From: Thiotrichales bacterium
GTDB lineage: Bacteria; Pseudomonadota; Gammaproteobacteria; Thiomicrospirales; Thiomicrospiraceae
Direction: 5' to 3'
Length of the DNA: 56,048 bases
NCBI GenBank assembly: GCA_022759035.1
Contig: JAEMQD010000058.1
Coordinates: 1 to 56,048 of the forward strand
Numbering within the stretch: position 1 is the stretch's first letter; the number at the start of each line of letters is the position of its first letter. Below, piece by piece: positions 53,399-55,012 of the stretch. A model generated the notes under the pieces. It was not told the origin of the DNA. It ran no database searches and saw only the letters and a list, made by a program, of their open reading frames with translations. The position numbers and the translations under genes were made by a program.

Positions 53399-54598
53399 TT
53401 AAGCGAGGAAAATGTTTCCTAGATCATCAATAATAATAGGTACAGCCTTTAGTGCTTGATTTTGACAAGGACCTGAAACGCAGAAGCCATCTTCAACTCT
53501 AAAAAATGCATCGTGTACAGAGCATTTCATGGTTAGTGTGCGCGGATCAATTTCGACTTTGTACATATTGTCTAATGGCACGTTTGCGTGCGGACAATTG
53601 TTGACGTAGGCGCGAGCTGTATTTTGATATTTAACTAAAATAAGCGATTCTGCTTTGCCTTCGACATGAAAAATATTGCCTTTATAGGCATTGAGTTGCG
53701 CGATATTGGTAAGGTGCATTTTGTTGTCGTTGGCAAAGAGTTTGTTTAGGCCTTTCTGTTGTATTTTTCTTTCTGCTAGTTCGACGCCAAGTTTTAACGC
53801 TTCTGCTGTGCTATGGCCGCGAATCAGTCCGTCAATAACACCGGCATTAAAGGTATCTCCAGCGCCAATGGTATCGACTACTTTGATGTTTTGTGTGGCG
53901 GCAACAAAGTGACTTTCGCCTTTGTTGTCCATTGCATAGGCTCCATCACTGCCCCATCCACAGAATAATTGCGCATTTGGTGCCAATTTATGCATCGCGG
54001 TTAAGAAAGTAATCGCGTCAGAATACCCTTGTTGTTGCGCATAGCTACGAGAGAAAAACAAGACGTTCACTTGCGTCATAAGTTGCGCTAGCAATGGGCG
54101 GTCTTTTTCTATTTCTAATGAAATGGGTTGTGTTGTTAGGAAGCATTTTGCAAGATTAAGCATCGCATTGACAGCTTCGCTATTGCGTGCTTCAAAATGT
54201 AGCCAATCGAAGTTTTCTATTTCTATCTTGGCGAAGTGTTCGAAATCAAGCTCGGCTAAATCGCGAAAGTGAGCGATTGTTCTTGAGCCAGTATCTTCGG
54301 CTAACCAAATGCTTGAAATGGGCGTTTTTCCGCCTCGAACAAGTTGTGCTTGTTGATAATCAATTTGCGCAAGATCTAGCATTTTAAGAAGCTTTATGCC
54401 CGCATCATCTTTAGCATAAGTACCTGACCAAGCTGTTTCGTGATTAAGTTGCCTTAGTACAGACAGGGTGTTAATGGTGTTGCCGCCAAGTGCTTCATAC
54501 ATGCCAAGACAACGAAACTCGCTATCTTCTTCAGGGTAAGTTGCTATCTGTGTTATTTGATCGATGAGGGCGTTACCAATGCCAAGAATTTTTGCCAT
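53399..54598 (-). CDS. PfkB-family ketohexokinase-like kinase fused to a Rieske [2Fe-2S] domain
   Basis: A 399-residue two-domain protein. Residues 1 to about 290 form a ribokinase/PfkB kinase that is notably like animal ketohexokinase: YPEEDSEFRCL, GGNTINT, SRTIAHF, FEARNSE, CGWGSDGAY, and the catalytic motif DTIGAGDTFNAGV (Asp248). Residues equivalent to KHK sugar contacts (Asp13, Asp25, Asn40, Asn43) are present. Residues about 298 to 399 form a Rieske domain with ligands Cys335, His337, Cys359 and His362 (CPH...CSVH) and extra cysteines at 373 and 378. The two domains share one unbroken frame. The natural substrate and the electron partner are unknown. No other sugar genes are nearby. The ATG lacks a clear ribosome binding site. 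Confidence 0.92.
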   Translation of the reverse strand: MAKILGIGNALIDQITQIATYPEEDSEFRCLGMYEALGGNTINTLSVLRQLNHETAWSGTYAKDDAGIKLLKMLDLAQIDYQQAQLVRGGKTPISSIWLAEDTGSRTIAHFRDLAELDFEHFAKIEIENFDWLHFEARNSEAVNAMLNLAKCFLTTQPISLEIEKDRPLLAQLMTQVNVLFFSRSYAQQQGYSDAITFLTAMHKLAPNAQLFCGWGSDGAYAMDNKGESHFVAATQNIKVVDTIGAGDTFNAGVIDGLIRGHSTAEALKLGVELAERKIQQKGLNKLFANDNKMHLTNIAQLNAYKGNIFHVEGKAESLILVKYQNTARAYVNNCPHANVPLDNMYKVEIDPRTLTMKCSVHDAFFRVEDGFCVSGPCQNQALKAVPIIIDDLGNIFLA

Positions 54599-54620
54599 GT
54601 TTTAATGCTTTTAGCTAATG

Positions 54621-54636
54621 AAATTACATGTAATTT
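54621..54636. promoter_or_regulatory. Perfect 16-bp palindrome upstream of the kinase-Rieske gene
   Basis: AAATTACATGTAATTT is fully self-complementary and lies 22 bp upstream of the kinase start codon. A dimeric repressor or activator could bind it. A nearby ATGACA (-35-like) and TAAAAT on the minus strand would place it close to the transcription start, though their spacing (15 bp) is short. Confidence 0.5.
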
Positions 54637-54672
54637 TACTGCAAATAAATCTCTGTCATAAGAAAATATTTT

Positions 54673-54681
54673 TGTGGATAA
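54673..54681 (-). promoter_or_regulatory. DnaA box 1 (perfect consensus)
   Basis: Minus-strand TTATCCACA matches the strong DnaA-box consensus in all nine positions. It is one of two such sites in the same orientation in this gap. Confidence 0.6.
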
Positions 54682-54858
54682 GAAAATTTTTTGTATCAAT
54701 ACGCTTGACTTATGATTGTTGTCTGTTGTTGTGTTTTTATAAATTAAAATTTAAATACACTTTATAACAACATGATTAAATTAATAAAAATATTTTTATT
54801 TGTATAATTTTAATGAGTAACTTACTGATTATGGTTTGTTAAAATTACTCAACAAGAC

Positions 54859-54867
54859 TGTGGATAA
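54859..54867 (-). promoter_or_regulatory. DnaA box 2 (perfect consensus)
   Basis: A second perfect TTATCCACA on the minus strand, 186 bp from the first, on the other side of the AT-rich core. Confidence 0.6.
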
Positions 54868-54925
54868 CTTTGTGTATATTTTTATAAATGGTATAGAGCG
54901 CATTGTCTCGGCGATATTTTTACTA

Positions 54926-54946
54926 CATGCTTAATTTTTAAGCATG
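54926..54946. promoter_or_regulatory. Inverted repeat upstream of the ExeA/MshM-like gene
   Basis: CATGCTTAA-TTT-TTAAGCATG is a 9-bp perfect inverted repeat ending 66 bp upstream of the ATG. It lacks a following T-tract on the plus strand, so it looks more like an operator or leader hairpin than a terminator. Confidence 0.5.
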
Positions 54947-55012
54947 CAACAGGCATAGTAAATATTAATATTGCTTGGTAGAATGAGAGCAACTAACTAC
55001 AGATGAAGTATT

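Follow-up and report, generated by a model that had tools for sequence, protein, structure and literature searches.

A ketohexokinase-type kinase fused to a Rieske [2Fe-2S] domain: a Rosetta-stone fusion of a widespread gammaproteobacterial gene pair

The fusion gene and its conservation

We analyzed a stretch of 56,048 nucleotides from a Thiotrichales bacterium (contig JAEMQD010000058.1), the whole of which is called the window here, and detected on its minus strand a complete coding sequence at 53399..54598 for a protein of 399 aa plus stop, in which a ketohexokinase (KHK)-type kinase is joined to a Rieske domain. The frame starts with ATG at 54598 and ends with the stop codon at 53401-53399, with no stop inside the minus-strand translation, and the plus strand has many stops over 53399-54598. 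The uninterrupted 399-codon frame with kinase and Rieske parts, proposed earlier from the sequence (the original prediction), was borne out at exactly 53399-54598 on the minus strand, both Pfam matches being above the curated cut-offs.

A Pfam profile search assigned aa 3-285 (53744..54592, minus strand, as for all protein features below) to the KHK-type PfkB kinase domain (PF00294, E 1.5e-28) and aa 301-381 (53456..53698) to the Rieske [2Fe-2S] domain (PF00355, E 2.3e-8), which extends past the Pfam match to about aa 399. The kinase domain contains GAGD at aa 245-248 (53855..53866), corresponding to the anion hole and the catalytic base D248 (D258 in human KHK). The gap separating the two Pfam matches, aa 286-300 (53699..53743), is the interdomain linker, and in the fusions of the window's family the HMM-defined domains lie 52-61 nt apart. 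In the Rieske domain, the first cluster-ligand motif, C335-P-H337 (53588..53596), is followed by the second, C359-x2-H362 (53513..53524), and by an extra Cys pair, C373-x4-C378 (53465..53482, motif GxCxxGPC), which is non-canonical as a ligand. The residues named in the original prediction (GAGD 245-248, D13, D25, N40, N43, C335, H337, C359, H362) had all been placed correctly. The idea that the Rieske part has its own internal start was rejected, since M294 varies among homologues. The AlphaFold2 structure model of the fusion protein, computed from only three alignment rows, had a mean pLDDT of 45, too low for use.

The intergenic stretch at 54599..55012 (no strand assigned) separates the fusion gene from the divergent AAA ATPase gene, and the promoter of the fusion gene, if any, would be expected within it. 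Promoter-like matches in this stretch were not above chance expectation, and an Rfam search of it gave no RNA family match. The neighbours in the window, which from our reading of the sequence we take to be rnr and rlmB (convergent with the fusion gene) and an ExeA-like AAA ATPase (divergent), are functionally uninformative.

The fusion gene was present in all 63 genomes examined of the window's order (one family, seven genera), with 43-64% identity. It forms a single open full-length frame over both domains in 61 of these genomes, several one-contig assemblies among them; the two exceptions (G046 and G055) have interrupted frames, in G046 near the C-terminus. The MAGs Gammaproteobacteria JN10.006 and Thiotrichales 35-46-9, both already counted among the 63, carry the full-length fusion with 64% identity. 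The in-frame conservation in 61/63 order genomes rules out a sequencing error or a hidden stop at the domain junction. The fusion protein is genuine and not an artefact.

The two halves and their known relatives

The kinase half matched the whole PfkB profile PF00294 with 100.4 bits (cut-off 25.8), which places it in the PfkB/ribokinase family. Its closest PDB matches were mammalian ketohexokinases (E down to 1.5e-43), with the best bacterial PfkB structure, sulfofructose kinase, far behind (1.2e-8), and the identity to human KHK was 35% (99/282) over aa 3-284. D13, D25, N40, N43 and D248 align with human KHK D15, D27, N42, N45 and D258, and the set of residues that marks eukaryotic-type KHK (D15, N42, N45, K174, D258) is represented completely (D13, N40, N43, K165, D248). 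In human KHK, D15, N42 and N45 are essential for activity, K174 and R141 affect the fructose affinity, and D258 is the base (PMC11332825). Among 80 aligned kinase domains, D13, N40, K165, D248, R138 and R106 are conserved, except for one D13 gap in a sequence cut off by a contig end, and N43 is conserved in all but one, which has a substitution. The KHK-like sugar contacts of the original prediction were thereby strengthened, with mammalian KHK as the best structures and the fructose residues kept in about 80 homologues. Phosphorylation of C1 of a ketose is predicted for this kinase with good support from the sequence.

The eukaryotic KHK (KHK-A/KHK-C; PDB 2HQQ, 2HW1, 2HLZ) has the fructose-binding and catalytic residues in common with the fusion kinase but carries no Rieske domain. 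The lid-loop residue D114 of human KHK, which pairs with R141, has no counterpart in the fusion kinase alignment, and the position of human Y112 is occupied by a histidine, H110, which is invariant in and specific to the kinase family described here. No NCBIfam equivalog scored above its cut-off for the kinase half, and the named bacterial PfkB equivalogs (ribokinase, fructokinase, 1-PFK, others) were rejected, the best reaching 65 bits against a cut-off of 500. The haloarchaeal KHK (Haloferax/Haloarcula), distant from the eukaryotic type and reported as the first prokaryotic KHK with a demonstrated physiological role, is also a prokaryotic PfkB enzyme making fructose 1-phosphate (PMC11519228). 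Unlike the fusion protein it has no Rieske domain, and assignment of the fusion kinase to this type (PF25270) was rejected at 11.3 bits, far below the cut-off of 35.

The Rieske half matched PF00355 with 34.3 bits (cut-off 20.3) and has the complete CxH...CxxH pattern, which places it among Rieske domains. The four ligands C335, H337, C359 and H362, as previously named, together with C373 and C378, are invariant in 51/51 homologues, fused and separate, consistent with a predicted [2Fe-2S] domain; the C373/C378 pair is a possible disulfide or thiol switch. The established role of Rieske clusters is electron transfer, in respiration, in oxygenases and in small ferredoxins. A profile built from 31 Rieske domains matched the Rieske ferredoxins of carbazole dioxygenase, toluene-4-monooxygenase and biphenyl dioxygenase. 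The NCBIfam matches of these domains were to dioxygenase ferredoxin subunits and NirD, with only one, weak match for the window member. The ferredoxins BphF, T4moC, CarAc and HcaC, and NirD, likewise consist of a single small Rieske domain with CxH...CxxH and no bc1-type disulfide cysteine. However, the Rieske ferredoxins of oxygenase systems are not fused to a kinase and come with oxygenase and reductase genes, which are absent beside the kinase-Rieske pair, and the invariant Cx4C (GxCxxGPC), a signature of the Rieske family described here, is incomplete in the two aligned PDB relatives.

Two other Rieske classes were rejected. A bc1/b6f-type protein does not fit the motifs CPHAN and CSVH, the missing CxHxGC...CPCH disulfide cysteines and the missing membrane/TAT anchor. 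The cytochrome bc1 Rieske protein of the window genome, encoded elsewhere (contig C1), has the Rieske domain and ligand pattern in common with the fusion, but it also has an N-terminal TAT/membrane-anchor region and CTHLGC/CPCHGS motifs, and the fusion protein has neither. A Rieske non-heme iron oxygenase would have a START-like catalytic domain at the C-terminal side, while the fusion protein ends with the Rieske domain and its remainder is PfkB.

Both halves belong to known families, and what is new is their combination. A search of the open-access literature for Rieske together with PfkB, KHK or sugar kinase retrieved no relevant paper and no characterized protein of this design (a paywalled report is possible), in agreement with the original prediction, which knew of none.

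The kinase-Rieske gene pair and its genomic context

We searched a class sample of 369 genomes, evenly spread over Gammaproteobacteria, with homology support for gene calling at the sampled loci, and detected the KHK-type kinase in 102 of them, 98 of which are outside the window's family. Among these 98 outside carriers there were 31 separate pairs and 5 fusions. In the separate pairs a same-strand Rieske gene adjoins the kinase gene, immediately downstream in 30 and immediately upstream in 1. Pair or fusion together account for 36/98 carriers in 24 families. Many pairs have stop-start junctions (ATGA overlap or TAAATG abutment), which is a signature of translational coupling. The binomial tail for chance adjacency was below 1e-40, even assuming 20 Rieske genes per 3000.

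In the phylogeny of the kinase, the fused state requires three changes, at least two of them forced by well-supported branches, with origins in the window's order, in a group with G207 and family f158, and in G116; given tree support that is moderate in places, the fusion events number about three. Repeated fusion of adjacent genes is classical Rosetta-stone evidence for joint action of the products. The window protein is thus a Rosetta-stone case, with a widespread gene pair fused into one, and the pairing and repeated fusion support a task shared by the kinase and Rieske products. The oddity of a Rieske domain on a sugar kinase, stressed in the original prediction, holds in that no characterized protein of such design was found, but not in origin, the two genes being a recurrent adjacent pair in Gammaproteobacteria that was fused about three times. 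As a fused operon, the fusion has an ordinary evolutionary origin; what it implies for function is unusual. No Rieske gene adjoins the kinase in about 60% of the carriers from outside the window's family, so the Rieske part is dispensable for the kinase reaction. The same Rieske subfamily was also found in genomes without the kinase.

The recurrent neighbours of the pair are a cNMP/rhodanese/FGE protein, SnoaL-like proteins and an SBF-type transporter, and no oxygenase, reductase or ferredoxin-reductase gene recurred beside it in about 57 neighbourhoods. Counting only same-strand genes of >300 aa directly 5' of the kinase, we detected a long cNMP-binding/rhodanese/FGE-type gene in 13 loci, 12 of which have the Rieske gene (Fisher p = 0.001); the underlying neighbour group ('cluster 1') lumps several proteins via common rhodanese or FGE domains. 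The long protein has two cNMP-binding domains, a rhodanese domain, a long Pfam-free middle and usually a C-terminal FGE-sulfatase-like domain, and we know of no characterization of it. Its length is 1,595-1,881 aa (e.g., L100:1434-6509, L101:734-6316, L083:7799-13069, L103:929-6574). A related gene leads straight into the Rieske gene, without the kinase, in three further genomes. The window genome itself has an FGE-like domain in a 701-aa protein (G000:C3:38502-39263; locus L215:913-3018), which is presumably an OvoA-type ovothiol synthase.

A second context was found in 13 other loci (L064, L069-L073, L078, L079, L088, L089, L092, L095, L119), where a zinc-ribbon membrane protein of ~100 aa is encoded directly upstream of the kinase, and in seven of them a pentapeptide-repeat protein is encoded downstream of the kinase. 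The Rieske gene is present in none of these 13 loci (p = 1.5e-5).

In six loci, five of them Rieske-linked, the kinase or kinase-Rieske genes are closely followed by a gene for a PanS-like transporter of the SBF family (e.g., L112:978-2090, L090:3488-4495, L084:8046-8978, L118:7877-8908). This transporter possibly moves the kinase substrate or product.

Of the 20 relatives examined within the window's family, 15 (L127, L128, L130-L135, L137-L143) encode a Crp/FNR-type regulator divergently to the fusion gene; beside the window gene there is none. The cysteines of the regulator are FNR-like (Cx2Cx5C, with the fourth Cys 102 residues past the first in most). FNR boxes upstream of the fusion are not conserved, with two sites among the 20 relatives (L127, L132) and zero in the window.

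RuBisCO-family genes were found in 94/102 kinase carriers of the class sample vs 93/267 non-carriers (p = 4e-25), and at the family level in 52/55 carrier families vs 40/127 (p = 2e-16). The kinase-RuBisCO link amounts to a correlation between lineages, not to a requirement, because the statistics are not corrected for phylogeny, the profile also picks up RuBisCO-like proteins, and eight kinase carriers have no RuBisCO match. RuBisCO carriage is alike for Rieske-linked and unlinked kinases (p = 0.15). Full-length sucrose synthase is also commoner in the kinase carriers (36/102 vs 19/267). Sucrose synthase as the fructose source was rejected for the window genome, where PF00862 has no match, and a source of free fructose is therefore not evident there.

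Proposed function

The reading that we prefer, and to which we give about even chances, is that the fusion protein is a ketose 1-kinase whose usually separate Rieske partner became a C-terminal redox module in the ancestor of the order. The ketohexokinase-type kinase would convert ATP and a ketose to ketose 1-phosphate and ADP. The ferredoxin-type Rieske [2Fe-2S] partner, elsewhere usually the product of its own gene downstream of the kinase, often with translational coupling, would have joined the kinase C-terminus in that ancestor, and both halves would serve one task. The Rieske domain may act as a redox module (for electron supply or oxygen), sensing or relaying redox state, that tunes the kinase activity or couples the kinase to an electron carrier. 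The substrate is probably fructose or another ketose, or a sugar leaked from the Calvin cycle or from sucrose metabolism; we infer fructose by homology, and a Calvin-cycle ketose is an attractive alternative because of the RuBisCO link. The original prediction raised both redox or oxygen gating and anchoring to an electron-transfer partner as possibilities; we lean toward regulation of the kinase by the cluster rather than electron delivery, since the recurrent neighbours of the pair include no oxygenase or reductase. Speaking against the preferred reading are the many kinase carriers without an adjoining Rieske gene, the presence of the Rieske subfamily in genomes lacking the kinase, and the window genome offering no evident source of free fructose.

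A different role of the cluster is possible but rather unlikely, in which the Rieske domain is the electron carrier for an unlinked oxygenase, reductase or membrane complex that works on the same metabolite either before or after it is phosphorylated, the fusion channelling electrons or substrate. The nearest solved Rieske relatives are electron-carrying ferredoxins of oxygenase systems, the NCBIfam matches point to dioxygenase ferredoxin subunits and NirD, and there is no bc1-type disulfide cysteine adjoining the ligands, all consistent with a carrier, but the expected oxygenase, reductase and ferredoxin-reductase genes do not recur in about 57 neighbourhoods of the pair.

We consider it doubtful that the kinase acts on a substrate other than free ketoses, for instance a CBB-linked sugar phosphate or a nucleoside-like compound, which would make the KHK name misleading. 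All the fructose-contact residues required in human KHK are kept in about 80 homologues, and this argues against such a substrate, even though every NCBIfam equivalog is far under its cut-off, the invariant H110 of the family replaces human KHK Y112, PanS-related SBF transporters adjoin some members and the kinase is correlated with RuBisCO. Two domains with unrelated jobs, co-transcribed and fused because the same condition needs both (e.g., autotrophic, low-oxygen growth) and not functionally coupled, would agree with the independent variation of the two genes (kinase often without Rieske gene, Rieske gene also without kinase) but are quite improbable, as about three independent fusions and the order-wide retention of the fusion, with all ligands invariant, favour a shared task.

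The occurrence of the gene pair in mostly RuBisCO-carrying bacteria suggests that sugar phosphorylation may be tied to the cell redox state there. Tentatively, the protein could serve CO2-fixing Gammaproteobacteria as a ketose kinase gated by redox state or oxygen, in which the cluster and a possible C373/C378 thiol switch toggle the phosphorylation of a leaked Calvin-cycle ketose with electron supply; if true, this would be, to our knowledge, the first demonstrated case of a metabolic kinase under the control of a Rieske domain. A predicted Rieske cluster fixed on a carbohydrate kinase throughout an order raises the question of whether an Fe-S cluster controls, or feeds on, sugar phosphorylation. 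The kinase belongs to a eukaryotic-type ketohexokinase family in bacteria that tracks RuBisCO and for which we found no characterized member in the open-access literature, and this family may be an unrecognized part of carbon metabolism in CO2-fixing Gammaproteobacteria.
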